DNA of 64,000 nt from Alicyclobacillus sp. SO9 (GTDB lineage: Bacteria; Bacillota; Bacilli; Alicyclobacillales; Alicyclobacillaceae), in the NCBI RefSeq assembly GCF_016406125.1, contig NZ_CP066339.1:3968001-4032000 (forward strand), in the 5' to 3' direction. Below the pieces are notes generated by a model that was not told the origin of the DNA, made no database searches, and saw nothing but the letters and a program-made list of their open reading frames with translations. Below, piece after piece: positions 4,467 to 61,505 of the stretch. Numbering within the stretch: the first letter of the stretch is position 1; the number at the start of each line of letters is the position of its first letter. Made by a program: the position numbers and the translations under genes.

Positions 4467-4482
4467 CCCGTTTGCCTCCTGT

Positions 4483-10690: not shown

Positions 10691-15914
<5,224 letters not shown>

Positions 15915-15986
15915 CGTAGCCCTCCTCGTAGTAAGATTTTTAGATGACGATACTTTCATTTGTCAGCAACCACTCTGCCCCTCGTT

Positions 15987-17381: not shown

Positions 17382-17438
17382 GAACTCCGCTCCTTTGGGA
17401 AATGGAATTGTTGGACGTGCCAAAAGACGACTGTACGA

Positions 17439-21404: not shown

Positions 21405-21439
21405 TATCAATCCCCCAGGCTTCACTCCGATTTCCCTTG

Positions 21440-31412: not shown

Positions 31413-32423
31413 CTATAGAGGATGAGAAGTCGCGAGGGAAATGCAACGAAACTCCGTTCCAAAGTTGCAGGCCGGGTCTCCGTCTCGGTAGTTTCTTGAT
31501 GCACAGTAAAAGTGATACAAAACACCCTTGTATCTGACAACAGCAGCCTTATGTGCATGAATCCCGTCAATCTCCTCTGGCTTCCCATGAGGAATAATCG
31601 GTTCAGTATGTTTGTCCCAGTGTATGAGATCGCGGGAAAAAGCAATGCCATCCTGTGCATGACGCAAATTATATCCAAAATAGTACATGACGAACTGCGA
31701 CCCGTCCCGCACAACACACGGATCGGACACAAACTGGCTATCCCAATGGTCCGGCGTAACTCGCAATATCGGGTTTTCCGACGACCGGTGCCAGTTGATA
31801 AGGTCAGCGGACATTGCAACCCCCGTTTGTTCAATCCACCTGCCGCTATTGGTGTTCTTCGCGTTATAGAACATGTAAAATTGTCCTTCATCTTCAATCA
31901 AACAAGCTTTGTATAAACCACCCGATTCCCATTCATCCCCGTCTCTCCATGAGTAAACAGGCGCATCCAGTCTGTTCCATTCCAGCAGATTTTCATCCTC
32001 TGACCATGCCAATCCAATTTCAGCAGGCCCGTTTTCATAGCCGTTTTGAGGATACGAATGATAGACAAGCCAGTACTTCCCCTTAAACTTTTTTAAGGTC
32101 GGGAGTCTCGACAAGTCATCCTCGCGAAGGATCCAGGTTCCGGCAGCACCAACATCATCCCATCGCCCTTGCTTTTTCCGATGAAGAATCACCCCTAGAT
32201 GCTCCCATTTTATGAGGTCGTCGCTTACTGCGAGAGCCGTCTGATATCCCTTTCCGTCAAAGCCGACATACATCATGTAAAATCGATTGTTATGAAAAAA
32301 CACAAAGGGGATATCAACCGCATTTGAGTCAAACTCGCTTTCTTGACCGGAGGGTGATAACACAGGTTTCCCATATTTGTGAGGGGTAAGGTACTTCTCC
32401 AATGCGGGTGTGTCTAAGGACAT
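31413..32423 (-). CDS. five-bladed beta-propeller glycoside hydrolase-like protein (GH43/GH32 superfamily)
   Basis: The 336-residue protein shows the repeated blade pattern of this superfamily: DIPFVFFHNNRFYMMYVGFDG, WEHLGVIL, GKYWLVYHSY, GQFYMFYNAKNT, SDPCVVRDGSQFVMYYFGY, GVLYHFYCAS. The first-blade Asp and later Asp/Glu residues (D37 in VDIPF; SDPC) are candidates for the catalytic triad, but the subfamily is not clear; GH43, GH117 and GH130 remain possible. It has no signal peptide. ATG 32423 has AAGGTGG upstream. Its promoter region (32424-32674) is shared with a divergent plus-strand gene. Confidence 0.7.
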   Translation of the reverse strand: MSLDTPALEKYLTPHKYGKPVLSPSGQESEFDSNAVDIPFVFFHNNRFYMMYVGFDGKGYQTALAVSDDLIKWEHLGVILHRKKQGRWDDVGAAGTWILREDDLSRLPTLKKFKGKYWLVYHSYPQNGYENGPAEIGLAWSEDENLLEWNRLDAPVYSWRDGDEWESGGLYKACLIEDEGQFYMFYNAKNTNSGRWIEQTGVAMSADLINWHRSSENPILRVTPDHWDSQFVSDPCVVRDGSQFVMYYFGYNLRHAQDGIAFSRDLIHWDKHTEPIIPHGKPEEIDGIHAHKAAVVRYKGVLYHFYCASRNYRDGDPACNFGTEFRCISLATSHPL

Positions 32424-34872: not shown

Positions 34873-36150
34873 TCAAAAGAGAGGCCGCGGCCCAAACTTC
34901 TCAACAGCACGCTGCAGTGCCTCGTGGTCACGCGCATAATCTTCAAGTTTGCGCCCTTCCAAAGCAGCCTGCCATCCTTGTTTCATACTTTCGACTCCCG
35001 CCCTCACGCCATCGGGATGAGCCATAATCCCACCACCAGCCAAATGCAATACGTCGGTAGTCTGCATCAGTTCAAAGGACCGGACAGCAGAACCGCCCCA
35101 CTGGCCAGATGACAAAACTGGCATAACCGTGTAACCGCCATACATTGGAGTCAAACACTCCCGTACCGATTGTACGACCGATTCGTTCGATTCATAGAAC
35201 TTGTTATCAACACCGTTTGTATGAAGGTGGTCTACCCCCGCCAACCGGCACAGCTTTTGATAAGCCGTAAACTCCATGCCCAACAGCGGGTAACGAGTCA
35301 TGGCTCCCCATTGATTCCGATGTCCATGGATAGGAACTTGACTATGCCGACGCAAATACGCAACTCCAGCCAACCCTACACTGTTAATACTGACCATCAC
35401 GCAGTTCCCGCCAGCTTCCACAACGGCGTCGTGATGATCAACCAACCTGTCTAAATCGTCTGTGATATTAAAGGCATACATCATTTGTTTCCCTGTATCT
35501 TGAGCGGCCCGATTGACTTCCTCCATTACTAGTCTCACCCGATCCCGAAGGGGGAAATAAGGAGGATTAGCGTTCAATTCGTCGTCCTTCACGAAATCAA
35601 TACCGGAGTAGGCAAGCTCTCTGACAAGGGCTCTCAATTCATCCGGTCCGAGTCCAATGCTGGGTTTGACAATCGTACCAATCAACGGACGGTCGTTCAC
35701 TTGACAGAGCTTACGCGTTCCGTCAACCCCAAATTGAGGTCCTCGATATCGGTCTGCAAACGCCTCAGGTAACGCAAGGTCAATGAGCCTAATACCGGAC
35801 AACTGACTCAGTTCGTACAAGTTCCCGCACACCGTTGCAAGCAGATTGGGGATTGAAGGCCCCGTATTGTGGAAGGGAAACGAGATCTGCACTTTAGCTC
35901 GCTTGTAGGAAGCGGCGCCTCCACCAGTTCGAAGCCTGGTCCCCGGAAGTGACGGCGTCGACACGGACTCCAGTTCGACAACACTCTCAACCCTTGCACG
36001 ATGTCGATCCTTTAGGTCATCTGTCTCACCGGGTATAGCAACAAAGGTTCCCGTCGATTGTTCAGTAGCAATCATCTCGGCAGCATAGTCGATTGTAAAA
36101 GGCGTCTCAATCAGATAGGTAGCGTATATACGATTCTGAGTCTTCATCAT
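34873..36150 (-). CDS. oiaX: RuBisCO-like protein (form IV), 3-oxo-isoapionate-4-phosphate decarboxylase-like
   Basis: From ATG 36150 (AAAGGAG nine bases upstream) the protein has 425 residues. It has the RuBisCO small N-terminal domain and TIM barrel. The first catalytic lysine is kept (K162 in GTIVKPSIGLGP) and so is the carbamate/magnesium motif (K188, D189, D190, E191 in GIDFVKDDELN). The second lysine of the KPK motif is Ser, and the loop-6 lysine motif is absent (MPVLSSGQWGG). So it is not a CO2-fixing enzyme. RuBisCO-like proteins act on 5-methylthioribulose-type and isoapionate-type phosphates. With ApnO- and OiaK-like proteins present, the OiaX role is the best fit. It is the last gene of the rhamnosidase operon. 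Confidence 0.8.
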   Translation of the reverse strand: MMKTQNRIYATYLIETPFTIDYAAEMIATEQSTGTFVAIPGETDDLKDRHRARVESVVELESVSTPSLPGTRLRTGGGAASYKRAKVQISFPFHNTGPSIPNLLATVCGNLYELSQLSGIRLIDLALPEAFADRYRGPQFGVDGTRKLCQVNDRPLIGTIVKPSIGLGPDELRALVRELAYSGIDFVKDDELNANPPYFPLRDRVRLVMEEVNRAAQDTGKQMMYAFNITDDLDRLVDHHDAVVEAGGNCVMVSINSVGLAGVAYLRRHSQVPIHGHRNQWGAMTRYPLLGMEFTAYQKLCRLAGVDHLHTNGVDNKFYESNESVVQSVRECLTPMYGGYTVMPVLSSGQWGGSAVRSFELMQTTDVLHLAGGGIMAHPDGVRAGVESMKQGWQAALEGRKLEDYARDHEALQRAVEKFGPRPLF

Positions 36151-36174: not shown

Positions 36175-36834
36175 TTAGACAGCTTCAAGCACCGACTTCA
36201 CCGCCGCTAGACCTGAACGAAGGCTGCTCAGAACGGGAATTCCGGTCTGCTGCTCGAGTTCATCCTGCATTCTGGCCATGGATGCTTGTGCAAGCACAAC
36301 AAGGTCAACTTGCTTGGCAAGGCCCTTGGCAACGTGAACAATCCCTTCATCATGCTTTTCAGAATTGCCTTCAATCAATGCTTGGTAAGCTCCGGAAGCA
36401 AGTCCTTCAACCAGCGTTACAGACTTCTCCAACTCAAGAGCCTTCGTCCGAAGCAACTCTTTTGTCGGTTGCAGAGTGCTTGGCAAAGTAGCTATCACAC
36501 CAATTCGACTGAATTTACGCACTGCATCTTCTGCCATGGCCTCGTCAATTCGAACAATTGGAACACTAACAGCCGTTCTCCCCACTGTGGCGATTTCCCC
36601 CACGGACGAGCATGTGTTCAAAATCACGTCTGCACCCATCTCTTCAGCATTTTCATAATAGCGAAGCAGTCTGCGCACAATTTTAGGAGTCACACCACCG
36701 CTGTTGTTTACATCATGGATTAAGCCGTCATCAATCACGTTGACTAAGCGTCCACCAGAAATCATTTCGTTAAACGCAGCCTGCAAAGGTTCTGCCAATC
36801 CTTGACCCGTGTATATTGCAACAACAGTTTTCAT
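36175..36834 (-). CDS. Asp/Glu-racemase-superfamily protein of unknown role
   Basis: From ATG 36834 (AGAGGTG upstream; another ATG lies two codons earlier) the protein has 219 residues with the two-domain Asp/Glu/hydantoin racemase fold. The first catalytic cysteine is present (ILNTCSSVGE). The second position reads VLAQASMARM, with no cysteine, so a two-base racemase mechanism is unlikely. One-cysteine members include decarboxylases and isomerases. It lies 24 bases before the RuBisCO-like gene and probably acts on the same phosphorylated or keto acid. Its function is not known to me. Confidence 0.78.
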   Translation of the reverse strand: MKTVVAIYTGQGLAEPLQAAFNEMISGGRLVNVIDDGLIHDVNNSGGVTPKIVRRLLRYYENAEEMGADVILNTCSSVGEIATVGRTAVSVPIVRIDEAMAEDAVRKFSRIGVIATLPSTLQPTKELLRTKALELEKSVTLVEGLASGAYQALIEGNSEKHDEGIVHVAKGLAKQVDLVVLAQASMARMQDELEQQTGIPVLSSLRSGLAAVKSVLEAV

Positions 36835-36969
36835 TTTCATCGCACCTCTTTCCAAAGTATAAATGCCAACATTCAATACGCCTCGTTAAGAAGCTGAATA
36901 AGAAGCTATACATGAACTGCTACAGACGAGAAGTCTGAGAGAAAACAAAACAGCGCTGCCGACTGATAC

Positions 36970-38691
36970 TTACCAATCCAGTTCATCCTCAACCCGATGG
37001 AGATCTCCTGCCTTAAGCGGAGCCGTTTCTGAAACGGTCTTGTGATTGTAAAACGGCCGGTATTCTCCCTCTGGAGAAATATGAACCACATCGTCACCGC
37101 GCCATGTCACGCGAAACTCCTGACCCACGGCGTATTCGATTGTGGTTTCTTCCAGCAGCGGGAACGTCACTGTAATTTTTTCCCCCGCTCTCACATCGGA
37201 CACGGTAAAATAATCCGGCTTCATCCAGACACTGGGCTTAGCACCTTCAATGACGGCGGACTCTCCAGCTCCCATACGCACGGCCTTAACTTTTGAATAG
37301 CCAGCCCACTTCGGAATTCTGATATGCAACCACTTAAACCCTTCATGGATTTGCAACTCCACTTTTCCTTCGTGGGGAAGGTAACTCATGACATCAAGCC
37401 ACTTTGAGCCCCTATTGAGCAAGAGGTTAACAGACACAGCACCGTTGTCTTCCGTTACAATGTTTCGCCATCCTAGAAACAAACCGCGGGTACCGGATCC
37501 AATACAGCAAGCCTGAACATCATTGATATGCCCTCGGCCGTAATTGACATCACATGCATAATCATTGGGTGCGCTGTAGCCCGCAAACGCGCCTAATAAC
37601 CGTTCCCCAACTTGAAAATGAGTTCTCCAGCCAGCTTCGTCGTTCGCGGTACTGTCAGCTGACTTCACCCAATCAAGGTCAATCAGTTGAGACTCTGTTA
37701 AATGATTTCTTAAAAACCTTTCCACAACGCTCCAATACTCCGTATAGCCTGCTCTTGCTAGGCTGATACCAGTGCTGATAAGGTCGACTAGTGAACAAGT
37801 CTCATGTTCATATCTCTGTTCCTGCATATCTCCTGGGGTCCATCCAAACGATGTAGACTGACTAAGAGCCCAGTCATAGCTCTTTTTCACAAAGGCAGAC
37901 AGCGAATGATCGCGTTTAAACAACGCAAACCTAGCCAGTCCATCCAGTGTTCCTAAACGGGTATGAAAGTGTCCACTGCGATACGCCAGGGCAGAGTTAA
38001 AGCTGCCGTCTTCATTAAAAACACCACTGCGGTGAACAATTAGGTTCACGAAATAGTGGCACAGTTCCAAGGCGTCGCCGTTTCCGGTTAACTCATGGTA
38101 CTTCAGCAGCGGCATAATCAGTCTTCCAGAAAACGATGCAGGGTCAGGTGCTAAACGGAGTTGAACGGCATTGGCGGACGGCCATCCGTCTTTGGTATAT
38201 TCAGACGCGGGATAATACCAAACATCTTTCTCTTTGACTGTAATCCGTTTGAGTGCAGCCACATGAGCATCTGCTGCTTGTTTCACATTTTCATCCTTTG
38301 TGCTCATATACCACGACGTCAATGCCAATAGAACCGACCTCTGATCAATTAAATTCGCAGTTTCCTTCCAATGCCCATGTGGATGTTCACGTCGATAACT
38401 CAATCCATCCTCTGCAAAAAAACTCATAAAATTTTCTCGGTAGTGTTTCTCAATGTCGTCCCCCAACGAACTGCCACTCATGTTACGTGCCAAGATTAAA
38501 GCATCGATTAAGCGCCCGTGCGTCGACCCATAGTCCCAATCGCCGTGTTGCATCGAAGCCGGATTTTCAATGAGGTTACCGCTGAAAAATGGGATGAATC
38601 CATACTCATGGTCGGCTAATCCAACGGCAGCATTGACGGCAAGTTTTGCTCGTTCTTCGAGCGTCAGTGTATCAGGAATTTGTTTCGTCAT
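36970..38691 (-). CDS. GH127-like (DUF1680-type) cysteine glycosidase
   Basis: The 573-residue protein has an (alpha/alpha)6 barrel followed by beta-sandwich domains. It keeps the zinc-thiolate pattern of beta-L-arabinofuranosidases: E297-T-C299 and the C395-C396 pair (QACCIGSGTRGL), the latter containing the presumed cysteine nucleophile. Overall similarity elsewhere is low enough that it could be a separate branch. Known clan members act on beta-L-arabinofuranosides and, in rhamnogalacturonan II breakdown, on unusual sugars. Its ATG overlaps the stop of the GH78 gene by four bases. No signal peptide. An apiosidase or aceric-acid-releasing role is conceivable but unsupported by direct evidence. 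Confidence 0.75.
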   Translation of the reverse strand: MTKQIPDTLTLEERAKLAVNAAVGLADHEYGFIPFFSGNLIENPASMQHGDWDYGSTHGRLIDALILARNMSGSSLGDDIEKHYRENFMSFFAEDGLSYRREHPHGHWKETANLIDQRSVLLALTSWYMSTKDENVKQAADAHVAALKRITVKEKDVWYYPASEYTKDGWPSANAVQLRLAPDPASFSGRLIMPLLKYHELTGNGDALELCHYFVNLIVHRSGVFNEDGSFNSALAYRSGHFHTRLGTLDGLARFALFKRDHSLSAFVKKSYDWALSQSTSFGWTPGDMQEQRYEHETCSLVDLISTGISLARAGYTEYWSVVERFLRNHLTESQLIDLDWVKSADSTANDEAGWRTHFQVGERLLGAFAGYSAPNDYACDVNYGRGHINDVQACCIGSGTRGLFLGWRNIVTEDNGAVSVNLLLNRGSKWLDVMSYLPHEGKVELQIHEGFKWLHIRIPKWAGYSKVKAVRMGAGESAVIEGAKPSVWMKPDYFTVSDVRAGEKITVTFPLLEETTIEYAVGQEFRVTWRGDDVVHISPEGEYRPFYNHKTVSETAPLKAGDLHRVEDELDW

Positions 38692-41384
38692 GACGTTGCC
38701 TCCATTTCATCTTGAATCACCTTGTACGAGAAGCGATGCTGCCCTGAACCAATCGTCAACGACGGCTGTCCAGCAGTTCCAGTGTTAAGTGCGGTCATAA
38801 GGTGAATGAAGTCGTCGGGTGACACGTCCGCTGCGAAATCCTGCAGTGTCAAATGCGGAAATACCACTGTTGCAGTTGTATTAGCGGGGACTTGCACAAA
38901 CAGCTCAAACCGCTGTTCCGGTTCAGTCCATTTCCACTCTGATTTCACAACGCCATACATCGTAGCTACTGAAGCTCTTATCCAACTCAGTTCCTTTGAA
39001 GGCCGAGGTCTGATAATGCTGTGCTTAAACCCAGGTTGCGTCTCGTCAGTGTCAATGCCGGCCACAACCCTGTACAACCATTCACCAATAGACCCATATG
39101 CATAGTGGTTGAATGAGTTCATATCGTCGCTCCAGAATGTTCCGTCTGGCTTAATTCCGTCCCAGTGCTCCCATATTGTTGTGGCACCGCGAGTAATAGG
39201 GTACAGCCAGGACGGATACTCTTGCTGCAGCAGCAGTTGAAAAGCCGTCTCCGAATAACCATACTCAGAAAGGGCCAAACACAAATAGGGTGTTCCAACA
39301 AACCCTGTGCTTAAGTGCATGTCATTGTCGCGAATATAGCCATGAAGTACTGCTGCAATTTGGGGTTTATGTCGTTCATCGACCAAGTCAAACCAGAGTG
39401 CCAAGATGTGAGCCGTCTGCGTAGAAACCGCTAAGCTACCGTTGTCTGTGACAAATTCCTGCTGAAATTCTTGAACGATGTTTTGCTGTAACTTGCGATA
39501 ATCATTCGCATCGTTGCTCTTACCAAGAATCTCGGCCGTTTGTGCAAGTAACTTGGTAGAATAGGCGTAAAACGCATTCGATATGAAGTTCACATCCGTA
39601 GCACCGACGTAGCTGTCTTCTTTCGCATCCAAACCGAGCCAGTCTCCATATTGAAACCCGCCTTCAAACCGATTTTCGTTGTTGCCTCGCAAACGCATAT
39701 GTTCTACCCAGGCTTTCATACTTTCATATTGATTTTGCAGAATCTGCTTGTCACCGTAATGCAGATACAGTGTCCAAGGACAAATCACAGCAGCATCAGC
39801 CCATGCAGAGCTACCGTTGTCACGTTCAGTCAAAATGTTCGGAATAACATGAGGGACCGATCCATTTGAAAGCTGGTTAGCGGTCAAATCTTTTAACCAC
39901 TTCGCGAAGAAGGAAGCTACATTCATGTTGTAGGCAGCAGTTCTGATAAATACCTGGGCGTCCCCGGTCCAGCCGAGGCGCTCATTACGCTGCGGGCAAT
40001 CAGTGGGGACGTCGAGAAAGTTCCCCCTTTGCCCCCAAAGTATATTTTGAAACAACTGATTCACTAGGGAATTGGAAGTTTCAAAATACCCCGTTTGCTC
40101 CATATCCGTATGTATCACAAGGGCTCGAAATTTGGTCTTATCAACCGCCTGCAGTCCATCTACTCTGACATAACGAAAACCATGAAAAGTAAAGTGGGGT
40201 TGAAATACCTCTAAACCGTCTCCTCGACAAATATACCTGTCTGTTTGTTCAGCCTCCCGAAGATTCCCAACGTAGAGATTTCCGTCTTGATTGAGCACTT
40301 CTGCATGTGTGAGCGTGATTGTTGTGCCGGGGTCTGCCTCCGCTTCAAACCGAACCCATCCTACAAGGTTCTGGCCCATATCGAGTACCGTCTCTCCATT
40401 GGGTGTAACAATGACCGCAACAGGCTCAATCTCTTGTATGGCACGGGTAGGGAGATTCTCCTGCCCCACCAGCATGGTTGTTCCATGGTCAGTAACAGCG
40501 ACTTGGGACCAGTCCAGTGGTACATACTGGGCTGTATCCCACCACGGCAATTGCAAATTGGCGTCATATAACTCACCGTGGTAGAGTTCAGAGAAACGAA
40601 TAGGACCCAATTTCCACACCCACGATTCATCCGAGCAAACTACTTCGCGACTCCCGTCTTCATAGTCTAGATGTAACTCCAGTAAGAGACACCGCTGGTC
40701 TCCGTATAAGTTGCGTTCATTTTTCCAACCTATCTGTCCCGTATACCAGCCATGGCCGAGTATCACTCCAAGAGCATTGTGTCCCTCTCTAATCACAGTT
40801 GTCACATCGTAAGTCTGATACTGCAATCGTGTTTCATAGGCCGTCCAGCCTGGTGTAAACAGCCAATCCCCTATTCGCTGTCCGTTCACATGCAATTCGT
40901 ACAAGCCAAGGCTGGTCACATAAGCACGGGCACGCACGGGTGGAGCCTTGATGTGGAAGGACTTGCGCAGAAAAGGGGAGACCTGTAATCCCATTGTGTC
41001 CAGTTGGCTGTCTGCAGTAATCCACTTGGCCTGCCACCGGCTTGAATCCAGCAGTCCCGTTTCCCAGTAACTCCGTTCGCTCCAGGCGGATGAGTTCCCC
41101 TTTGTATCCCACACCCGAACCCGAAAATAATAGCGAGTTTGAGGTAATAATGGCGGCCCTTCATACGTCACGTGAATAGATTGGTCTGTGTTTATCTGCT
41201 TCGTATCCCAGAGCACTTCACAGAAGCCTTCAACCACAGACACCTGCAGCTGGTAGGCTGCCTGTAAAACGTCTGTCTCCGTGGTTTCCAGTTGCCATGA
41301 AATACGGGGCGATTCCACGTCCAATCCGATTGGATTTACTCTGTATTCGCAGCGTAATTGTTCAACCCTCAGCAACACCAACAC
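38688..41384 (-). CDS. GH78 alpha-L-rhamnosidase (first)
   Basis: The 898-residue protein has the full GH78 layout: N-terminal fibronectin-like domain (RVNPIGLDVESPRISW), carbohydrate-binding beta domain (ARAYVTSLGLYELHVNGQRIGDWLFTPGW), (alpha/alpha)6 barrel and C-terminal beta domain. The catalytic region contains DCPQRNERLGWTGDAQVF with the Asp and Glu residues of the family, and GATTIWEHWDG and SFNHYAYGSIGEWLY are present. It removes terminal alpha-L-rhamnose in the cytoplasm; no signal peptide. The second GH78 gene ends 39 bases upstream, and the GH127-like gene overlaps its end, so all are one operon. The start at 41384 was chosen by frame; the ribosome site is modest. Confidence 0.93.
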   Translation of the reverse strand: MLVLLRVEQLRCEYRVNPIGLDVESPRISWQLETTETDVLQAAYQLQVSVVEGFCEVLWDTKQINTDQSIHVTYEGPPLLPQTRYYFRVRVWDTKGNSSAWSERSYWETGLLDSSRWQAKWITADSQLDTMGLQVSPFLRKSFHIKAPPVRARAYVTSLGLYELHVNGQRIGDWLFTPGWTAYETRLQYQTYDVTTVIREGHNALGVILGHGWYTGQIGWKNERNLYGDQRCLLLELHLDYEDGSREVVCSDESWVWKLGPIRFSELYHGELYDANLQLPWWDTAQYVPLDWSQVAVTDHGTTMLVGQENLPTRAIQEIEPVAVIVTPNGETVLDMGQNLVGWVRFEAEADPGTTITLTHAEVLNQDGNLYVGNLREAEQTDRYICRGDGLEVFQPHFTFHGFRYVRVDGLQAVDKTKFRALVIHTDMEQTGYFETSNSLVNQLFQNILWGQRGNFLDVPTDCPQRNERLGWTGDAQVFIRTAAYNMNVASFFAKWLKDLTANQLSNGSVPHVIPNILTERDNGSSAWADAAVICPWTLYLHYGDKQILQNQYESMKAWVEHMRLRGNNENRFEGGFQYGDWLGLDAKEDSYVGATDVNFISNAFYAYSTKLLAQTAEILGKSNDANDYRKLQQNIVQEFQQEFVTDNGSLAVSTQTAHILALWFDLVDERHKPQIAAVLHGYIRDNDMHLSTGFVGTPYLCLALSEYGYSETAFQLLLQQEYPSWLYPITRGATTIWEHWDGIKPDGTFWSDDMNSFNHYAYGSIGEWLYRVVAGIDTDETQPGFKHSIIRPRPSKELSWIRASVATMYGVVKSEWKWTEPEQRFELFVQVPANTTATVVFPHLTLQDFAADVSPDDFIHLMTALNTGTAGQPSLTIGSGQHRFSYKVIQDEMEATS

Positions 41385-41423: not shown

Positions 41424-44126
41424 TCATGCTCTTTCACTGGTCATCCTTCGCTGCTCGTGCTTCACGGAAGTAAAATAGTACTCACCGGACCCAACTGAAA
41501 CCACAGCATAAGGACCTTCCATTTTAATAAATGAGAGGCCCTCGGTTTCCGCCAGCGGCATCCCTCGTTCCAGCACCTGTGCTCGCGAGTCTGCCGGAAT
41601 ATGGATGACAGCAGTTGTATTAGCGGGAATTTGCACTTTGAGAGAAATCTGGTCTTCCCAGTGTTCCTTATAGTCGATACTCACGGTTCCTGGTCGCAAT
41701 GTATGATAGGCTCGAACCCATCCCAAGTGGCTGCCCGGCTCTGGTCTGACATCGATGTGAAACTGCTCTGACTTCTTGTCAAAATAGTAGTCTATGCCCG
41801 CAACGTTCCGGTAAAACCACTCTTCTATATGCCCCAGCATGAAGTGATTTTGGGAATTACCGATTTTTGGGCCGCCCCACGCTTCCGTCAGAGTGGTGGC
41901 ACCGTGAATGACTTGATAGCCGTAGCCAGGCTCGTCAGTTTGCTGGACCATTTGTTGAATTATGTGAGAAAATCCGTGATTGGCAAGGGCCAGCAAAACA
42001 AATCGGTGACCAATATCTCCGGCAGTAATCCTATACCCTGTTCTCTCAATATCTGCAGCCAAGTGCTTGAGTGCATGCCCCTGTTGATAGTCGCTTAACA
42101 AGCCAAGAACCAAGGGGATGGCATTAGAGGTTTGACTATCAGTGCCAATGACGAAAGGATGGGTATGTACAAAAGCTTTCTGAAAAGCCGCGTATATACT
42201 TTGTTTCAGCGCTTCATATCGGTTACAATCTGCAGAATGTCCCAAGCTGGCGGCCACTTGACCCAGCACTTCCACCATGTGATAGAACATGGCTGTTTCT
42301 ACGAGTTCTACTGGTGTGTTCTGAGCATAGCCTGGCGGGTTTTCTCCCACGTCATACCAATCCCCTAAACCGCCCGTAACGATAAAGTTGTCCGATTGGT
42401 CCGAAACATACTCAACATACTTTTTCATTCCTTCGTAGTGTTCAGATAAAATGCTGTGGTTGCCGTATTTTTGATTTAAGAACCAAGGCAACAGAATATA
42501 GGCAATACCCCATGCGACAGTGTCTCGGAAGTGGTGATACGTTCCTTCAAACACTGTATATTCCGGGGCTGTCGAAGGTACCAAGCCATTTGGTAGTTGC
42601 GCATCACGAATATCATTGACAACCTTACACAGAAGGCTTTCTACATCGTAATTAAACATGACGGCTGGACCGAGGAGATGGGTCTGTTCCAGCCATCCCA
42701 GCTTTTCCCGATGGGGACAGTCTGTGAAGACACTCTTCATGTTGCTTAAAACCGACCAGTTGATAATCTCATGTACACGATTCATCATGGGATCAGACGA
42801 TTGGAACTCACCCTTAACGTCAATATCCGGATAAATCATTTCTCCTTCGATAGACAACATGCTGCCAGTTCCATTCTGTTCCCCGGCAAATCTACTCGGC
42901 ACCAGTCCTTCCACCTGAACATAGCGAAAACCGTAGTAACTGAACCTCGGTGCCCACACTTCTTTCTCAGTTCCTTTAAGGGTGTACTGCCATTTATAAG
43001 GGCTTCCGCTATGTCGTTGGTTAGCGAGTCCGTCTTGAATCACTTCCGACGGGGTCAGAACCAGTTCTTCCCCTGCTTTTCCACGAACCACAACATTTAC
43101 CCATCCCGAAAAGTTCTGGCCAAAGTCGACAACATAGATACCTGGCCTAGTCTCTGTGATATCCACAGGCGAAAATCTCTCCATCACCTTTACAGGGGGA
43201 ATGGACTGAGACTTAAGTACAGCCTTCGAATCATTTTCTTCGAAAGCGTTTAACCAGTGTACAGCGTTGAAACCTGGTCTTGACCACCCTGTTTGTTCGA
43301 GACGGGCATCATAGTCTTCTCCGCCATACACCTCCGAGAAGACAATCGGACTGGGGCTGCATTTCCAGTTACCGTTCGATGCAATGGTCATTTTACTGCC
43401 GTCAATGAACTCAACTTGCAGTTGCACAATACACTTTGGCGTTCCGAACGAAGCCTTAAATTTTGAGTAACGCCCTCCAGCCACATGAAAGAATCCATTG
43501 GCCAACAGAATGCCAATTGCATTCGCTCCATGAGAGAGTTTTGTCGACACATCAAAAACATTGTACAGACGAGTTTTGTCGTAGTTCGTCCACCCTGGGT
43601 TCAAAACACTGTCCCCTACCCTGTTGCCGTTCACGTAAAGCTCATACTGTCCCAAGCCGCACACAAAAGCTCGAGCTCTGACTATAGAACTCTCCAAAGT
43701 GAATTCGTGCCTGAATTGTGTTGCTGCTGCATCTGCATCTCGAGGCGCCTGAATCCATTGTCCGACCCAATCCTCTGAGCGCAACAGTCCCGTTTCCCAC
43801 CATGACACTGTACTTTCAGTCTGTACATGTGCGTCGTCCCAGACAATGACCTTCCAATAGTAACGACATGAGGACCTCAATGGTTTGCCATCATATGTAA
43901 CATGTGTGCACCGGGCACTTCCAATAACACCGCTGTCCCACATATCACCCACATTGGCAGCCAAGTTGTCGACTGAGGTTGTCACTATGATGCGATAGGC
44001 ACTTTGTCCGGCACCCCGTCGGCGTGTCTCCTGAAAGCTCCAACCGAAAGACGGCTTATGTGCATCAACACCCAAGGGGTACTTTCGTGATTCTACAAAC
44101 AAGTCTTGAATTTTTAAGCCACTCAA
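41424..44126 (-). CDS. GH78 alpha-L-rhamnosidase (second)
   Basis: The 900-residue protein is a second GH78 enzyme with the same domains but clearly diverged: KYPLGVDAHKPSFGWSF, ARAFVCGLGQYELYVNGNRVGDSVLNPGW, FTDCPHREKLGWLEQTHLLGP, GATTLTEAWGG, SQNHFMLGHIEEWFYRNVAGI. It is the first gene of the operon that ends with the RuBisCO-like protein, driven by the promoter at 44223-44250. Two rhamnosidases in one operon suggest two rhamnosyl linkages or two substrates. No signal peptide is present. The start at 44126 was chosen by frame, because upstream bases lack a strong alternative. Confidence 0.93.
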   Translation of the reverse strand: MSGLKIQDLFVESRKYPLGVDAHKPSFGWSFQETRRRGAGQSAYRIIVTTSVDNLAANVGDMWDSGVIGSARCTHVTYDGKPLRSSCRYYWKVIVWDDAHVQTESTVSWWETGLLRSEDWVGQWIQAPRDADAAATQFRHEFTLESSIVRARAFVCGLGQYELYVNGNRVGDSVLNPGWTNYDKTRLYNVFDVSTKLSHGANAIGILLANGFFHVAGGRYSKFKASFGTPKCIVQLQVEFIDGSKMTIASNGNWKCSPSPIVFSEVYGGEDYDARLEQTGWSRPGFNAVHWLNAFEENDSKAVLKSQSIPPVKVMERFSPVDITETRPGIYVVDFGQNFSGWVNVVVRGKAGEELVLTPSEVIQDGLANQRHSGSPYKWQYTLKGTEKEVWAPRFSYYGFRYVQVEGLVPSRFAGEQNGTGSMLSIEGEMIYPDIDVKGEFQSSDPMMNRVHEIINWSVLSNMKSVFTDCPHREKLGWLEQTHLLGPAVMFNYDVESLLCKVVNDIRDAQLPNGLVPSTAPEYTVFEGTYHHFRDTVAWGIAYILLPWFLNQKYGNHSILSEHYEGMKKYVEYVSDQSDNFIVTGGLGDWYDVGENPPGYAQNTPVELVETAMFYHMVEVLGQVAASLGHSADCNRYEALKQSIYAAFQKAFVHTHPFVIGTDSQTSNAIPLVLGLLSDYQQGHALKHLAADIERTGYRITAGDIGHRFVLLALANHGFSHIIQQMVQQTDEPGYGYQVIHGATTLTEAWGGPKIGNSQNHFMLGHIEEWFYRNVAGIDYYFDKKSEQFHIDVRPEPGSHLGWVRAYHTLRPGTVSIDYKEHWEDQISLKVQIPANTTAVIHIPADSRAQVLERGMPLAETEGLSFIKMEGPYAVVSVGSGEYYFTSVKHEQRRMTSERA

Positions 44127-44328: not shown

Positions 44329-45354
44329 TTAATTCAAGTCAACAACCTGGTTGGTTCGCAGGCTTTCGTATACTGCAAACACAAGGCTTAATGTCTTGAG
44401 ATTATCAGCCCCGCTAGTTTGAAATTCTGTGCCGTCCTGCAAGCAAGATAGAAAATGCCTCTGGAGCCTGGAGAAACTCTCCTCCATGTTAAACTTATAG
44501 CCATTCGACAAGACACGTTCTGTGCCATCCGTCTGTCGTAAAACAAGCCGATTGTCTTGATAGAGAATTAAAGTGGCTCTGTCACCCTCCACAATCATCT
44601 GCTCAATCGGACATTCATCCCGCTGATTTGCCATAGACCTTCGGGAAGCCCAACTCACATCCATATGTCCGAAAAAGCCCTCGTGCTTTAGTGTGACAAC
44701 ACCCGTATCTTCACCTTGAACGTATGGACTGATTCGAGTTGCAGCAGCATAGAGACTTACAGGTTCACCAAACAAATACCTCCACACATCAAGCCAATGA
44801 ATCCCCATTTCGAAGAAAAGAAGGTTCGGCATCGTGCGAAAGTAGGGCTGAGGTATAGCTCTATCCGGCGCAAAAGTGGGTGTCGCGTACTTACAATCCA
44901 GAAACCGAATTTGTTGAATATTCCCAATAATTTGGCTTTGTATGTGTAATTTAACCTGCCGAAAGGGCTCCAGCCAGCGCCAGTTTTCTGTTACCATCAG
45001 TCTCACCCGATGGCGCTCGACAGTTTTGAGAATATCCTGCGCCTCTTGTACCGTTTGCGCAAACGGCTTTTGGCAGAGAATATCCCTTCCGGTTTTAGCA
45101 ACTATCTCCACGATTTCGCGGTGAGTATCAGGTTTAGTAACAATGTCAACGGCGTCTATGTCTTCATATTGAAGCAGTTCCTCAAGTTCAGTATATAAAT
45201 GCTGGTGGTCTATTTGAAACTGGGCCCCCCGCTCCTTCAATACCGCCTCATCTGTATCACAGAGACATTGTACAGTTGCACCTTCCACTTGTGACCAAGC
45301 ACGCAAATGGGTCTGCGACCAGTACCCGGCACCCACAACTCCAATCTTTTTCAC
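44329..45354 (-). CDS. Gfo/Idh/MocA-family oxidoreductase (second)
   Basis: From GTG 45354 (AGGAGTG upstream) the protein has 341 residues. It has the Rossmann motif KKIGVVGAGYWSQTHL (residues 2-17), the catalytic lysine motif GRDILCQKPFAQTV, and a C-terminal beta domain with FFEMGIHWLDVWRYLFG, carrying the His-x-x-x-Asp pair of sugar dehydrogenases. It starts ten bases after the DeoR gene and ends the rha operon. D-apiose dehydrogenase is of this family, and dehydrogenases of this type also act on rhamnose-related sugars and on glycoside bonds by oxidation. The substrate cannot be read from sequence. Confidence 0.85.
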   Translation of the reverse strand: MKKIGVVGAGYWSQTHLRAWSQVEGATVQCLCDTDEAVLKERGAQFQIDHQHLYTELEELLQYEDIDAVDIVTKPDTHREIVEIVAKTGRDILCQKPFAQTVQEAQDILKTVERHRVRLMVTENWRWLEPFRQVKLHIQSQIIGNIQQIRFLDCKYATPTFAPDRAIPQPYFRTMPNLLFFEMGIHWLDVWRYLFGEPVSLYAAATRISPYVQGEDTGVVTLKHEGFFGHMDVSWASRRSMANQRDECPIEQMIVEGDRATLILYQDNRLVLRQTDGTERVLSNGYKFNMEESFSRLQRHFLSCLQDGTEFQTSGADNLKTLSLVFAVYESLRTNQVVDLN

Positions 45355-45364
45355 GATGTCACTC

Positions 45365-46117
45365 CTATTCAACTCTGATTCCAGATTGTAAAAGTACGTC
45401 AATAATCTCTGGAGACACTTCTGAATCGCTCACCACAATGTCGATGTCACTTAAATTAAAAGTGTGAACTAGAGAGCGAACCCCAAACTTCGTGTGGTCT
45501 GCAAGTAAGTAAGTTTTGTCTGCAATGGAAACCATCTTTCGCTTAATCACAGCCTGCAGTTCATTTGACTCACTTATTCCTGCAGTTACATCAATGCCCT
45601 TGCATGAGACAAAGGTCTTGTTAACATGGTACTTACTCAATGCTTCCTCCACTAACGGTCCAACAAATGACATGGAAGTCACCCGGAGGATTCCTCCTGT
45701 ACAAATCGCCTGAATGCGATTGTTCTTTCCTAGCTCTTGTATCACAGGTATAGAATTTGTAATCACAGTGAGCTCAACTTCTGGAAGGGCCCTCGCCAAG
45801 TACCATGCAGAAGAACTGGCATCGAGAGCGATGATATCACCGGCTTCAACATATGACGCGGCTTTTTCAGCCACCTCCATCTTCTGCTGGGAATTCATAC
45901 TCTCCCGTTCAGTGTAGGGAATGTCCTGGCTTTCCGTCTCCATTCGGATTGCTCCGCCGTGACTGCGACAAAGTTTCCCCTGAGTGGCCAACAGGTCCAA
46001 GTCTCTACGTGCAGTCTCGGGAGTAACGTGAAACAATCGACTTAGATCTGTGACTTTGACACTGCCTGTGTCGTTAACCAGTTCTACAATTTTCCGTTGG
46101 CGTTCGAGGGCCATCAT
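45365..46117 (-). CDS. DeoR-family regulator in the rha operon
   Basis: The 250-residue protein has an N-terminal DeoR helix-turn-helix (RQRKIVELVNDTGSVKVTDLSRLFHVTPETARRDLDLL in parts) and a sugar-phosphate-sensing domain (IALDASSSAWYLARALPE, VITNSIPVIQEL, CTGGILRVTSMSFVGP, KTYLLADHTKFG). Such repressors usually respond to phosphorylated sugars, here probably rhamnulose-1-phosphate or its products. It lies between rhaI and the Gfo/Idh gene, with gaps of 64 and 10 bases. GGAGTGA precedes the start ATGs. Confidence 0.9.
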   Translation of the reverse strand: MMALERQRKIVELVNDTGSVKVTDLSRLFHVTPETARRDLDLLATQGKLCRSHGGAIRMETESQDIPYTERESMNSQQKMEVAEKAASYVEAGDIIALDASSSAWYLARALPEVELTVITNSIPVIQELGKNNRIQAICTGGILRVTSMSFVGPLVEEALSKYHVNKTFVSCKGIDVTAGISESNELQAVIKRKMVSIADKTYLLADHTKFGVRSLVHTFNLSDIDIVVSDSEVSPEIIDVLLQSGIRVE

Positions 46118-46181: not shown

Positions 46182-47411
46182 TCACCAACTACTTCCGCCC
46201 ACACCACGAACAGCAATCTTCTCTTCATACCCACTCTCTTTATACGCCGTCATCGGGTCTGCGGGCAGTCCTTCTTCTTCCCGCACGGCTGCCAAAAGCG
46301 AAGTAACATCCATTTCAAATGCCTTGCGAACCGCATTTTCTGCTTCTAGCACATCATTCTTTTCTTGAGCAGCATGTACTTCCTCATGACTAACCAGCAA
46401 AGCCTTTGCATATTGCGTTTGGATATTCATCACGGTCCGAATCATAGCAGGAATTTTCGGTTCAATCGCATGGCTTTGGTCAATCATAAAGGAGATGTTG
46501 TCAGCTGTGTGTCGTACATCTTGTTTACCGTCAAATTGTGCTTCTGAAATTTGATAGAAGATGAGAAATAGCTCATAGGGATCAATAGCTCCGGCAATCA
46601 AATCATCATCAGCATATTTTCGGCTGTTAAAGTGAAATCCACCAAGCTTCGTTTCGTCCAGTAAACAAGCCACAATGTGTGCAACGTTCGTCCCCTGAGG
46701 ATGATGACCTGTATCAACAAGGACCTGTGCTTGCGGACCTAACTTCTTTGCGGCAGTGAATGCCATTCCCCAATCAGCCAAATCCGTGTGATAAAAACCC
46801 GGTTCAAAAAACTTGTATTCTATTAACATCCTCATGTCGCCAGATAAGGCCCGATACGTGCTCTTGAGTGCTTCTTCCAACCATTGTTTTCGCTGCCGAA
46901 TGTGTCCTTGGCCCGGGTAATTTGTACCGTCTGCAAACCAAAGGCTCAGAATGGTAGAGTTCACTTCCTTCATGATATCTACACATTCCAAGAGATGGTC
47001 TAATGCCTTCTTCCGAATTTTCACATCGGAGTTGGTAATGCTCCCCAACATGTAATCGTCGTCTTGAAACAAATTCGGGTTCACTGCCCCAATTGTGAGA
47101 CCTTGATTTTCAGCATGTCGTCTTAATTCTTGAAAGTCATCCACTTTGTCCCAAGGAATATGAATTGCAACAGTGGGGCAGGCCCCCGTGAGTTGATGTA
47201 CCATCGCAGCGTCATCAAGTTTTTCAAACGGGTCTCGAGGCACACCTGCCCTTTGGAAAACCTTAAACCGGGTTCCCGAGTCACCGTACCCCCACGACGG
47301 AGTCTCGATTTTGAAGGCTTTCAACCTGCTTTTTACTTCATTTAAATTTATGCCCCTGGCTTTTTGCTGACTTTCAAACACCGAATATGCCTTGTCAAGC
47401 AAACGATTCAC
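46182..47411 (-). CDS. rhaI: L-rhamnose isomerase, RhaI (Pseudomonas/Bacillus) type
   Basis: The 409-residue TIM-barrel protein converts L-rhamnose to L-rhamnulose. Recognisable parts are TPSWGYGDSGTRFKVF near residue 37, AIHIPWDKVDD, LSLWFADGTNYPGQ, MLIEYKFFEPGFYHTDLADWG with a metal-binding Glu, VLVDTGHHPQGTN with Asp/His ligands, and LGGFHFNSRKYADDDL. This is the broad-specificity RhaI type, not the enterobacterial RhaA. GTG 47411 is the start, with AAGGATGG upstream. It lies 37 bases after the aldolase-dehydrogenase gene. Confidence 0.93.
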   Translation of the reverse strand: MNRLLDKAYSVFESQQKARGINLNEVKSRLKAFKIETPSWGYGDSGTRFKVFQRAGVPRDPFEKLDDAAMVHQLTGACPTVAIHIPWDKVDDFQELRRHAENQGLTIGAVNPNLFQDDDYMLGSITNSDVKIRKKALDHLLECVDIMKEVNSTILSLWFADGTNYPGQGHIRQRKQWLEEALKSTYRALSGDMRMLIEYKFFEPGFYHTDLADWGMAFTAAKKLGPQAQVLVDTGHHPQGTNVAHIVACLLDETKLGGFHFNSRKYADDDLIAGAIDPYELFLIFYQISEAQFDGKQDVRHTADNISFMIDQSHAIEPKIPAMIRTVMNIQTQYAKALLVSHEEVHAAQEKNDVLEAENAVRKAFEMDVTSLLAAVREEEGLPADPMTAYKESGYEEKIAVRGVGGSSW

Positions 47412-47448: not shown

Positions 47449-49494
47449 TTATCGAGGAAATGCGGGCGCAACACCGCCATCTATCGTCAACATACAGCCG
47501 GTAGTCTTAGCTGTTCTTGGCGAAGCGAAGAACAAAATACCTTCTGCAATATCCTCAGTTGAAATATTTACACCGAGAATGGTTCTCTTCCGGTAGTGTT
47601 CTTCTAACTCGTCAGGCTGAATGCCATAAGCACTCGCCCGCTCTTCTCGCCATGCAGAATTCCAAATATTTGAACCTTGTAGAACCGCATCCGGAAGGAC
47701 AGAATTGACCCGAATCTGTGACGGCCCGCCTTCCACCGCTAAGCAACGTGCGAGATGGGCTTCCAAAGCTTTGGCAGAGCTGTATGCTGCAGCGTTTTTG
47801 CCGGCATACACAGCATTCTTTGATGTGACAAAAATAACTGAACCGCCAATCCCCTGCTCCGTCATGATGCGAAACGCCTCGCGCGAAGTGAGAAAATATC
47901 CGGTTCCAAGTACACTCATATTGCGATTCCAATCGTCCAAAGTAGTTTGTGTGAATGCCGACGAACTAGCCAATCCAGCATTCGACACAAATACATCGAT
48001 ACCGCCGTATTCAAGGACGGCTTGCTTAAACGACTCAAGTACCTTCTCCTCTTTGGTCACGTCCAGCGTCACGCTGAAGGCCGTCCCAGACCCAAATTCT
48101 TCATTTAGTTTGGCTGCTTTGTCACGTGCCGCTTCAGCTGCGAGATCGGCTAGAATGACATGCGCACCTTCAGCAGCCATGCGTCTAGCTGCGGCACCGC
48201 CAATGCCTCCTGCTCCACCGGTAATATACGCTATTTTTCGCGCGAGTTCTTTCTCCTTGGGTGCCAAGGATAACTTGTACAGCTCAAGAGGCCAATACTC
48301 TACATCAAAAGACTCTTTTTCACTTAGGGAAACAAAGCTCCCCAGTGTGGTTGCGCCTTTCATAACTGCAACAGCTCTGCGATATAAGGCTGCAGCAACA
48401 TTTGCCATCTTTTTATTCTTACCCGTGGCAATGACCCCGAGACCAGGTATTAAAATGACTCGCGGGTACGGGTCGTGCATAGACACATCCAAGTCAACAT
48501 TTCGTTCGTAGTAGTCAACATAGTCTCTTTTGTATTGATTCAGTCCGTCCTGCAATAGCTCCTTGAGCTTATCAATAGCACCCGATGACGGGTCCCAATT
48601 TATGAATAGAGGCGTTCGCTTTGTATGGACCAAATGGTCTGGGCATGCCGCGCCCACCTGAGAGAGTTCCCCTGCCAAACGGCTATTCACAAAGTGCTGA
48701 AAATCCTCACCGGCATCATAGGTCAAAACTGTATGCCGGAACTCCGATACAATACCGCGGATAAAAGGTAATACGGACACAGCGAATTCTCTGCGAATTG
48801 CATCCGTGAGTTTTTCATGACGGGGGCCACCATATAAGTTTGGTTCATCAACGCGGCGGTTGATGTAATCCGCTGCTTCATGAATGATTCGAAGTGTGTT
48901 GTCATAGCACTCGTCAGATGTATCGCCCCAAGTGATAAGACCGTGTTTCTCCATCAATACCAATTCACACTCCGGATGGCTGCGAACTTTTTCACCAATC
49001 AGTTTGGATAATTGAAATCCCGGACGAATATACGGTACCCAAACTGCTCTGTCACCAAATATCTCCTTTGCTATGTCTCGCCCGTTGTCGCTGCAACACA
49101 GAGATATAATACTGTCAGGGTGTGTATGGTCAACGTGGCGAAACGGCAAAAAAGCGTGCAAGAGCGTTTCAATTGATGAACGGGGATGGCTGGTGTCCAC
49201 CATACATTTACGAAGATAGTTCACCATGTCTTCGTCCGTCATCTCTGCCCGATCCATTAATGGTGTAACCTCTTCGAGTCGCAGGGCCGTAAAGCTGTTT
49301 CCTGTCGCCTCTGCCAAATCCGAACCGCTGCCTTTCACCCACATAACCTGTATCTCTCTTCCCAGGTGGTCAGTACCCGTCGTCTTAACCGAAGTGTTGC
49401 CGCCTCCCCAGTTACAGACAGTCCTATCCAGTCCGATTTTATTGGACCTTGAAACGAGATTTTCTAACTCCGACATGTGTGTTACGCCCTCCAT
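47449..49494 (-). CDS. rhaEW: bifunctional L-rhamnulose-1-phosphate aldolase / L-lactaldehyde dehydrogenase
   Basis: The 681-residue fusion has an N-terminal class II aldolase domain (about 1-400: CNWGGGNTSVK, GSGSDLAEATG, HTHPDSI zinc motif) and a C-terminal short-chain dehydrogenase (about 410-681: AYITGGAGGIGGAAARRM, SNAG, AYSSAKALEAH with catalytic Tyr-Lys). The aldolase splits rhamnulose-1-phosphate to dihydroxyacetone phosphate and L-lactaldehyde; the SDR half oxidises lactaldehyde to lactate. This fusion is the usual Bacillus rhamnose arrangement. Two starts are possible, ATG 49494 and ATG 49476, each with a usable ribosome site. A long antisense open frame on the other strand is a shadow. 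Confidence 0.95.
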   Translation of the reverse strand: MEGVTHMSELENLVSRSNKIGLDRTVCNWGGGNTSVKTTGTDHLGREIQVMWVKGSGSDLAEATGNSFTALRLEEVTPLMDRAEMTDEDMVNYLRKCMVDTSHPRSSIETLLHAFLPFRHVDHTHPDSIISLCCSDNGRDIAKEIFGDRAVWVPYIRPGFQLSKLIGEKVRSHPECELVLMEKHGLITWGDTSDECYDNTLRIIHEAADYINRRVDEPNLYGGPRHEKLTDAIRREFAVSVLPFIRGIVSEFRHTVLTYDAGEDFQHFVNSRLAGELSQVGAACPDHLVHTKRTPLFINWDPSSGAIDKLKELLQDGLNQYKRDYVDYYERNVDLDVSMHDPYPRVILIPGLGVIATGKNKKMANVAAALYRRAVAVMKGATTLGSFVSLSEKESFDVEYWPLELYKLSLAPKEKELARKIAYITGGAGGIGGAAARRMAAEGAHVILADLAAEAARDKAAKLNEEFGSGTAFSVTLDVTKEEKVLESFKQAVLEYGGIDVFVSNAGLASSSAFTQTTLDDWNRNMSVLGTGYFLTSREAFRIMTEQGIGGSVIFVTSKNAVYAGKNAAAYSSAKALEAHLARCLAVEGGPSQIRVNSVLPDAVLQGSNIWNSAWREERASAYGIQPDELEEHYRKRTILGVNISTEDIAEGILFFASPRTAKTTGCMLTIDGGVAPAFPR

Positions 49495-51013: not shown

Positions 51014-51173
51014 GTATTTCACCTCCTCATCCCAAAACAGTGTATCTACATCTGCTATTATATCTCTTTATGTTTGTTTTTGTTACTTTATTTATTTTTA
51101 TATTGTATGATTCTGTTCTAAAATATGAGATAATTCAAATGATGTTATACGTATCAAGTCAGGAGGAGTGTCA

Positions 51174-61481: not shown

Positions 61482-61505
61482 TACGCGTACCTAGGAGGCA
61501 GCATT

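Follow-up and report, generated by a model that had tools for sequence, protein, structure and literature searches.

What is a RuBisCO-like protein doing at the end of a run of rhamnosidase genes? This question is raised by a 64 kb stretch of DNA from Alicyclobacillus sp. SO9 (46.9% GC, within a genome of 5.29 Mb), referred to here as the window, in which a gene for a RuBisCO-like protein (RLP) of 425 amino acids lies at positions 34873 to 36150. To our knowledge, RuBisCO-like proteins with known roles are few and belong to methionine salvage and apiose catabolism. The names of the apiose pathway used below reportedly go back to Carter et al. 2018. A passage of one paper assigns decarboxylation and transcarboxylation/hydrolysis of 3-oxo-isoapionate 4-phosphate to the RLPs of Agrobacterium K84 and Xanthobacter (PMC6302742). 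The best explanation for the window RLP is that it acts on this compound, as the product of an OiaK-type kinase, in the catabolism of D-apiose from pectin, a reading to which we give a probability of roughly 0.58.

The first-pass annotation of this DNA had described an intact RuBisCO-like gene closing a rhamnosidase run, and so it is. The gene is read on the minus strand from an ATG at 36150, with AAAGGAG ahead of it, down to 34873. Pfam profile searches match the product to PF00016 (2.2e-68) and also to PF02788. This PF00016 (RuBisCO_large) match is the sole one genome-wide, as is the PF07005 (SBD_N) match of the OiaK-like kinase at 9204-10631, and the genome thus has no other candidates for a pair of RLP and kinase. 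RuBisCO large-chain homology is combined with loss of CO2-fixation residues, and sequence places the protein in the OiaX/OiaT group of form IV RLPs rather than among the methionine-salvage enolases. Among NCBIfam models OiaX scores best (471.3 bits), while the top RuBisCO model reaches 250 bits and MtnW 207. The closest solved structure by sequence is 3nwr (424 bits; best MtnW chain 147 bits), presumably the RLP of Burkholderia fungorum. Rhizobial OiaX (NF042437; e.g. oiaX of NZ_CP013515.1) belongs to the same group, has 45% identity to the window RLP and works with the same kinase family OiaK; ApnO and Gfo/Idh homologues are common to that system and the window. Relatives were taken as the best 80 of 483 RLP loci (57-71% identity), each with flanks of up to 10 kb; loci carry L numbers below. 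The nearest among them are from Alicyclobacillus tolerans (71%) and a Bacillota metagenome-assembled genome (L034, 67%), and in the RLP tree the window groups with these two at starred branches (95 and 98). The tree, which took 77 of the 80 loci (3 were lost to stops or length), agrees with the NCBIfam scores on the membership in the OiaX/OiaT group rather than MtnW. Its outgroup is a single, very long MtnW-like row, and the rooting was not used. The RLP of one relative (L030:9163-10452) has an internal TAA, either a decayed copy or a sequencing error. The filter for stops and length was also passed by 60 of 75 OiaK sequences and 34 of 36 sequences of the racemase-family protein (RAC) introduced below.

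In the proposed route apiose would be oxidised by a Gfo/Idh dehydrogenase (44329-45402), the lactone would be opened by an amidohydrolase (2785-3522) and apionate would be oxidised with a carbon shift by an ApnO-like protein (3609-4568). Phosphorylation by the OiaK-like kinase (9204-10631) would then pass a 2-hydroxy-3-oxo branched acid sugar phosphate to the RLP. The genes concerned are the following.

34873..36150, minus strand: RLP of the OiaX/OiaT group, from profiles, tree and active-site residues
9204..10631, minus strand: OiaK-like four-carbon acid sugar kinase (DUF1537); best model OiaK, 468 bits against a cut-off of 700
3609..4568, minus strand: ApnO-like oxidoisomerase (PGDH_C); best PDB match 5t57
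2785..3522, minus strand: Amidohydrolase_2 protein, candidate apionolactonase replacing ApnL; in L089 and L092 the gene flanked by ApnO and Gfo/Idh has 64-66% identity to it
44329..45402, minus strand: Gfo/Idh dehydrogenase, ApsD-like; 44-45% to the Gfo/Idh of the RLP-OiaK-ApnO arrays in L089 and L092

This route is favoured as the explanation because two Paenibacillus loci, L089 and L092, carry a contiguous array RLP-OiaK-ApnO-amidohydrolase-Gfo/Idh, all five genes of which have counterparts in the window (59, 43-44, 39-41, 64-66 and 44-45% identity in array order). The window amidohydrolase adjoins ApnO as well. On a plasmid of Rhizobium sp. N1314, genes for OiaX, the kinase, a triosephosphate isomerase (TIM) homologue, RpiB, a PGDH_C protein, an ABC transporter, a Gfo/Idh protein, a 614-aa protein and DhaK/L stand in a row, and seven of ten queries from this cluster have window homologues (RLP 45%, OiaK 46%, PGDH_C 39%, Gfo/Idh 33%, TIM 39%, DhaK 44%, DhaL 31%); the remaining three (binding protein, RpiB, 614-aa protein) match nothing there. 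The pathway group of OiaX and OiaT is marked by OiaK and ApnO in the same genome, and both are present here (9204-10631 and 3609-4568). In tblastn searches OiaK was found in the flanks of 75 of the 80 RLP loci.

Several observations speak against the apiose route. The RLP (471 bits, against the OiaX equivalog NF042437) and the kinase (468 bits) both stay below equivalog cut-offs of 700 bits. The five apiose genes are spread over 43 kb rather than forming one operon, and the ApnO-like protein has 39% identity to the Rhizobium protein against 47-61% in 14 ApnO loci. The amidohydrolase is a candidate lactonase by position only, and no ApnL homologue was found in the window's genome by a search that had no positive control. 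The ApnL-like family (c44) has 28-36% identity to the Rhizobium 614-aa protein. A 573-aa protein termed P3, encoded in the run that ends with the RLP gene, was considered as ApnL and rejected: the Rhizobium protein matched nothing in the window, and P3 folds as GH127/146 instead. Finally, P3 and the racemase-family gene next to it are left unexplained by the apiose route.

These two genes lie between the rhamnosidases and the RLP gene, the last of a same-strand run GH78-GH78-P3-RAC-RLP with gaps of 39, -4, 93 and 24 bp. Upstream, across a gap of 202 bp, stand the rhamnose genes, here listed with the run and with the other glycosidase genes of the region.

36175..36876, minus strand: RAC, Asp/Glu-racemase-superfamily protein, proposed acid-sugar isomerase, from profile and residue alignment
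36970..38691, minus strand: P3, GH127/GH146-like glycosidase of 573 aa, from fold and Zn/Cys pattern
38688..41384, minus strand: GH78 alpha-L-rhamnosidase a, from profile matches
41424..44126, minus strand: GH78 alpha-L-rhamnosidase b, from profile matches
45365..46117, minus strand: DeoR-family regulator, from profile matches
46182..47411, minus strand: L-rhamnose isomerase, from a profile match
47449..49494, minus strand: bifunctional rhamnulose-1-phosphate aldolase / dehydrogenase, from a profile match
49526..51022, minus strand: rhamnulokinase-like FGGY kinase; best NCBIfam model rhamnulokinase, 466 bits against a cut-off of 528
10691..13837, minus strand: GH2 beta-galactosidase (LacZ type), from profile matches
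13872..15959, minus strand: GH42 beta-galactosidase, from a profile match
15987..17423, minus strand: SASA carbohydrate acetylesterase, from a profile match
31413..32423, minus strand: GH137-like protein; best PDB matches 5mt2/5muj/5mui, E 9e-35

The upstream rhamnose genes are the kinase, the aldolase/dehydrogenase, the isomerase, the DeoR regulator and the Gfo/Idh gene. Their co-transcription with the GH78-to-RLP run is plausible. It is graded no higher because promoter-like sites over the region are no commoner than in shuffles (22 against 21.8; promoter and terminator scans gave no excess), even if the best of them (11/12) sits in the 202 bp gap. The first-pass annotation had tied the RLP to plant-glycoside breakdown through co-transcription; the tie itself gains from the neighbouring enzymes and can be sharpened, since the surroundings (two GH78, GH127-like, GH137-like, GH2, GH42, esterase) resemble a locus for side chain B of rhamnogalacturonan II (RG-II). 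We take 5mt2, 5muj and 5mui to be BT0996 entries; the records themselves say beta-galactosidase. Passages in the literature state that the GH137 domain of BT0996 takes terminal arabinose off RG-II chain B (PMC9843283) and that 2-O-methylfucose is also found on this chain (PMC12282258). GH137-like homologues are rare on plasmids (3 of 72,556 records at E 1e-5). In Croceibacterium the GH137-like protein (43.5%) is the divergent neighbour of GH127-RLP-OiaK; in Rufibacter one lies with GH78, GH2, DUF5703, esterases, CoA-transferases and Gfo/Idh, and ten window proteins are matched there (E 1e-15). The protein occurs in 5 of the 80 RLP loci. At E <= 1e-80 it is found in 21 of 32 genomes with RAC or P3, in 4 of 17 other RLP genomes and in the genome of L112, counts which ignore relatedness and genome size. 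A GH140 reading of the DUF5060 protein in L112 was dropped, as no PDB entry matched.

P3 was called GH127-like in the first-pass annotation, and fold and Zn/Cys ligand pattern uphold the call. It has no Pfam match at E 0.001, including PF07944 (GH127), and no NCBIfam match. Its AlphaFold model (pLDDT 82, pTM 0.88) retrieves GH127/GH146 structures as the first 21 Foldseek rows, with 13-16% identity over the fold. E297-x-C299 and C395-C396 are invariant in 31 rows and reproduce, as a sequence pattern only, the Glu and three Cys (E-x-C and C-C) of the Zn site in this clan, given in one passage as E723, C725, C804 and C805 (PMC10850190). Fold and pattern are thus those of the cysteine glycosidases BT1003, HypBA1 and BT0349, from which P3 differs by the lacking Pfam match and the low identity. 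Cellobiose 2-epimerase was rejected as its family, as the barrel alone was matched (VIA-align Z 24.9 over 359 residues against 19.9 over 448 for GH127); so was the Croceibacterium GH127 as a relative, which aligns over a short stretch only (E 2e-4). In the alignment with 1jfl, C89 of RAC falls on the first catalytic Cys and Gln197 on the second, in 39 of 39 rows; the two catalytic cysteines of Asp/Glu racemases are therefore reduced to one. RAC alignments comprised 33 RAC loci and the window, later all 34 with four plasmid rows and the window. RAC homologues have a DUF1537 kinase as neighbour in Deinococcus taeanensis and sugar transporters in Paraburkholderia and Caballeronia, which ties the family to acid-sugar work beyond RLPs.

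Together, the genes for RAC and the GH127-like P3 make up a partner module that recurs with RLP-OiaK; it is new and left unexplained by the known pathway. By tblastn, RAC is present in 36, P3 in 30 and ApnO in 14 of the 80 RLP loci, and ApnO never shares a locus with RAC or P3. Genome-wide searches covered 32 of 37 RAC/P3 loci (left out were L048, L077, L080, L103 and L112; genomes of the species of L080 and L103 were already in). The ApnO query was unmatched in 28 of the 32 genomes and matched in 4, the ApnL-like query unmatched in 31 and matched in one; in a control search of 23 loci, L050 not among them, this ApnO query hit all 4 ApnO-type genomes and none of 19 others. On the RLP tree the RAC/P3 label has to change 7 times, and starred branches force 4 or more of these changes, so that the link between RLP and RAC/P3 arose, or was kept, several times. 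Paenibacillus and Cohnella show a recurring order of sensor kinase, ABC permease, AraC-type response regulator, P3, RAC, RLP and OiaK, often with GH78 and GH2. In L034, GH42-GH2-P3-RAC-RLP runs on without a break into the start of OiaK; in the window GH42-GH2-OiaK lie together at 9204-15959, and P3-RAC-RLP end the rhamnosidase run 19 kb away.

What could this module deliver to the kinase and the RLP? The strongest rival to the apiose route, tentative in our view and perhaps running beside it on the same kinase and RLP, is a route for aceric acid. P3 would free the sugar from RG-II chain B; isomerisation by RAC or L-rhamnose isomerase would give the 2-ketose HOCH2-CO-C(OH)(COOH)-CHOH-CH3, and phosphorylation and the RLP would follow. 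The carboxyl would be moved and the product hydrolysed to 3-phosphoglycerate and lactate; alternatively, decarboxylation would give a 5-deoxypentulose 1-phosphate, which RhaD aldolase would split into dihydroxyacetone phosphate and acetaldehyde. Aceric acid is 3-C-carboxy-5-deoxy-L-xylose, an aldose with the carboxyl on C3, and its 2-ketose is the methyl homologue of 3-oxo-isoapionate, with CH(OH)CH3 in place of CH2OH. It offers what RLP and OiaK require, a hydroxylated, carboxyl-bearing quaternary carbon beside a ketone. No oxidation step is required, and since the recurring block of the large RAC clade holds no oxidoreductase, the ketone should come from an isomerised aldehyde. With its single base-like Cys, RAC is better suited to a 1,2-proton shift than to racemisation by two bases, and the Deinococcus pair of RAC and DUF1537 kinase is in line with this role. 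Next to the RAC/P3 distribution, the repeated label changes and the GH137-like proteins, the route is favoured by the Croceibacterium GH127 (PF07944)-RLP-OiaK cluster with GH42, alpha-fucosidase and GDSL esterases, and by an acidobacterium (L077) with a GH127 (PF07944) gene beside RAC, near RLP and alpha-fucosidase. Full-length RhaD is present in 32 of 32 RAC/P3 genomes against 11 of 20 other RLP genomes (taken from the control search) above the family cut-off, a contrast which ignores relatedness and uses different query types. Passages of two papers name the GH127 enzyme BT1003 an aceric acid hydrolase (PMC5698469) and let the GH2 enzyme BT_0993 cut Gal-beta-1,2-aceric acid (PMC11739564).

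The aceric-acid substrate, however, is putative. P3 is similar not just to BT1003, 17th in rank, but also to beta-L-arabinofuranosidases, and no member of the Asp/Glu racemase family is known to us as an aldose isomerase. Neither RAC nor P3 is matched in the 19 kb Croceibacterium stretch, and ApnO is present in the window itself. Moreover, oxidoreductases are not always absent, as in 7 loci (c23/c24: L059, L080, L081, L084, L105, L110, L111) RAC has a Gfo/Idh dehydrogenase and an esterase-like protein for neighbours, and the CoA-transferase/Gfo-Idh module of the window could degrade an RG-II acid instead. RLP-dependent aceric-acid breakdown thus is a bold reading, with its chemistry drawn by analogy. 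Rather doubtful is its combination with the apiose route, in which one OiaK and one RLP would drain both branched sugars of RG-II: apiose would enter through Gfo/Idh, lactonase and ApnO, aceric acid, released by the GH127-like P3, through the one-Cys isomerase, and the RLP would turn keto-aceric phosphate into 3-phosphoglycerate and lactate by carboxyl transfer and hydrolysis of RuBisCO type. The aceric branch alone would operate in Paenibacillus and Cohnella genomes where ApnO was not found.

Whichever sugar is fed in, the reaction of the RLP has to be read from its active site. We mapped the 19 RuBisCO active-site positions, a list we take to be the usual one, through an alignment to the form III RuBisCO 1geh and a MAFFT alignment of 88 group rows, and widened the residue comparison by 14 extra plasmid loci. 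Fifteen positions are kept (E60, T65, N123, K175, K201, D203, E204, H294, R295, H327, K334, S379, G380, G403, G404) and four are changed: W66F (F36), T173I (I160), K177S (S164) and G381Q (Q350). The KDDE motif at 188-191 and the first catalytic lysine K162 are kept, and KPK reads K162-P163-S164, all as the first-pass annotation had it. Its statement that the loop-6 lysine motif is missing does not hold: K317 of the window, at position K334, aligns with the loop-6 lysine of 1geh; this position, like K175, is Lys in 88 of 88 rows, and the GKxEG context alone has diverged to NKFYE. Eight rows, six of them annotated oiaX, have D, G and Q at positions 60, 123 and 327, and form one side of a starred branch (100) in a quick tree. 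E, N and H stand there in the window (E30, N110, H310) in place of the D60/G123/Q327 of annotated oiaX rows, as in 15 other plasmid RLPs and in 3nwr. The latter also shares K334 with the window RLP; it differs by its 47% identity and a KPN in place of KPS. No clean residue switch between RAC-type and ApnO-type RLPs came from the contrasts.

The earlier claim that the protein decarboxylates or isomerises rather than fixes CO2 is not established, since residues lost in OiaX-type rows are kept here and carboxyl transfer with hydrolysis appears at least as likely as simple decarboxylation. In the RLP, Mg would be held by carbamylated K188 with D190/E191, and loss of the carboxyl would give an enediolate. 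Less surely, the enediolate would be carboxylated anew at the carbon that adjoins CH2-OP, and hydrolysis of RuBisCO type would then yield 3-phosphoglycerate plus glycolate, so that overall no CO2 would be lost. This is the chemistry of OiaT, the name by which, we assume, the Xanthobacter transcarboxylase/hydrolase goes. We infer such transcarboxylase/hydrolase chemistry, with less confidence, rather than plain decarboxylation because E30, N110, H310, K317 and K162 are kept. According to a passage of PMC6302742, the Xanthobacter enzyme acts on the substrate class proposed for the window RLP. Its products fit E/N/H-type RLPs that stand with apiose-type genes, without adjoining LerI/DerI and, in some cases, near pyruvate kinase or enolase genes. 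Roseibium and Phyllobacterium have such an apiose-type set (binding protein 75-77%, Gfo/Idh, ApnL-like, ApnO), with neither LerI nor DerI in the fetched RLP stretches. Pyruvate kinase lies near the E/N/H-type RLPs of L124, L143, L146 and L148, in two of them with enolase, as expected for a 3-phosphoglycerate product. Among the 80 RLP loci a LerI-like gene is found in none and a DerI-like gene in one, and the scarcity of LerI/DerI together with these neighbours favours products at the level of 3-phosphoglycerate. Haloarchaeal plasmids (L146, L126) likewise carry E/N/H-type RLP-OiaK pairs, 54-55% to the window, which pyruvate kinase and enolase adjoin in Haloterrigena.

Some points count the other way. 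Only one of the eight D/G/Q rows has LerI and DerI in its stretch, and LerI homologues (69%) lie about 170-180 kb from E/N/H-type RLPs on the Roseibium/Labrenzia plasmids NZ_CP128604.1 and NZ_CP045381.1, though LerI-type isomerases also serve erythritol catabolism. Moreover, the OiaT side was read from residues and neighbours. The alternative, that the RLP would only decarboxylate 3-oxo-isoapionate 4-phosphate to L-erythrulose 1-phosphate, which a TIM-like protein and an RpiB-like protein would turn into D-erythrose 4-phosphate, is unlikely. The window genes concerned are these.

60477..62150, plus strand: DhaK and DhaL subunits, also beside the Rhizobium apiose-type cluster
62150..62926, plus strand: TIM-family isomerase, LerI-like or ordinary triosephosphate isomerase; 39% to the Rhizobium LerI-like protein

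Plain decarboxylation agrees with OiaX as the best NCBIfam model of the RLP, with the TIM homologue and DhaK/L in the window as in the Rhizobium cluster, with two RpiB homologues (55 and 50%) elsewhere in the genome, and with the LerI homologues, though far away, on plasmids with E/N/H-type RLPs. It has to face the score below the OiaX cut-off, the E/N/H rather than D/G/Q active site and the near absence of LerI and DerI from the loci, no such pair lying beside the window RLP either. The window TIM is not distinguishable from the other TIM copy of the genome (178 against 165 bits). As to the weakest rival, that the RLP is a methionine-salvage-type (MtnW) enolase or belongs to another form IV group of unrelated function, the shared fold and weak MtnW model matches are outweighed by scores far under the cut-offs (164.5 against 513.6 bits for TIGR03332, 207.3 against 409 for NF007095), by 3nwr far outscoring any MtnW chain, by an MtnW-like row that stands apart on a very long branch and has Pro and Ser at R295 and K334, and by neighbours that are sugar-acid and glycosidase genes; scores, residues and tree led us to reject the MtnW-type identity, and the wider alternative is very improbable.

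A third RLP-OiaK context comprises a Zn-alcohol dehydrogenase, a class II aldolase-like protein and a TRAP or MFS-type transporter (L035, L036, L037, L039, L043, L044, L045, L049, L050, L053, L054, L057, L061, L071, L073, L086). ApnO was found in none of 19 searched genomes of these loci plus four other loci, and the substrate is possibly another branched acid sugar. An aldolase product was considered for the class II aldolase near TRAP-type RLPs, but its best model, 3-oxo-tetronate 4-phosphate decarboxylase, scores 128 bits against a cut-off of 250 and gives no proof. In the window, the genes of 17439-24988 (binding protein, Gfo/Idh, binding protein, IclR and a fused 794-aa CoA-transferase) match a plasmid cluster of Rufibacter tibetensis (L159) at 35-54%, and this block may encode a CoA-dependent pathway for a further acid sugar of RG-II; a 162-aa protein within it (18680-19168) recurs in L074, L076, L105 and L111 (67-71%). 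The DUF5703 protein at 29016-31334 has 52% identity to a protein of the Rufibacter cluster and a further match in L034 (64%), and is possibly an unrecognised RG-II enzyme. A 693-aa protein without Pfam match (32675-34756, plus strand) is convergent with the RLP gene; 9 plasmid records (from Asticcacaulis, Arthrobacter, Streptomyces and others) hold homologues, and those with an annotation are called hypothetical. A short-chain dehydrogenase/reductase (SDR) gene adjoins OiaK, and a 3HCDH-type dehydrogenase and an IolE-like TIM barrel (58174-60048) adjoin DhaK-DhaL-TIM, looking like a separate tetrose or inositol-like route.

8358..9131, minus strand: SDR oxidoreductase adjoining OiaK, from profile matches

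We know of no breakdown route for aceric acid, and among the open-licence literature matches listed no title or abstract start speaks of microbial use of the free sugar. If the RLP acts on aceric acid, it would supply a pathway not found in print in that literature. Were one kinase and one RLP to serve both sugars, a CO2-fixing active site would salvage a pectin sugar without losing its carboxyl carbon. An RLP acting on aceric acid would moreover be a natural enzyme for studying how carboxyl groups are moved within a substrate by RuBisCO-type chemistry.

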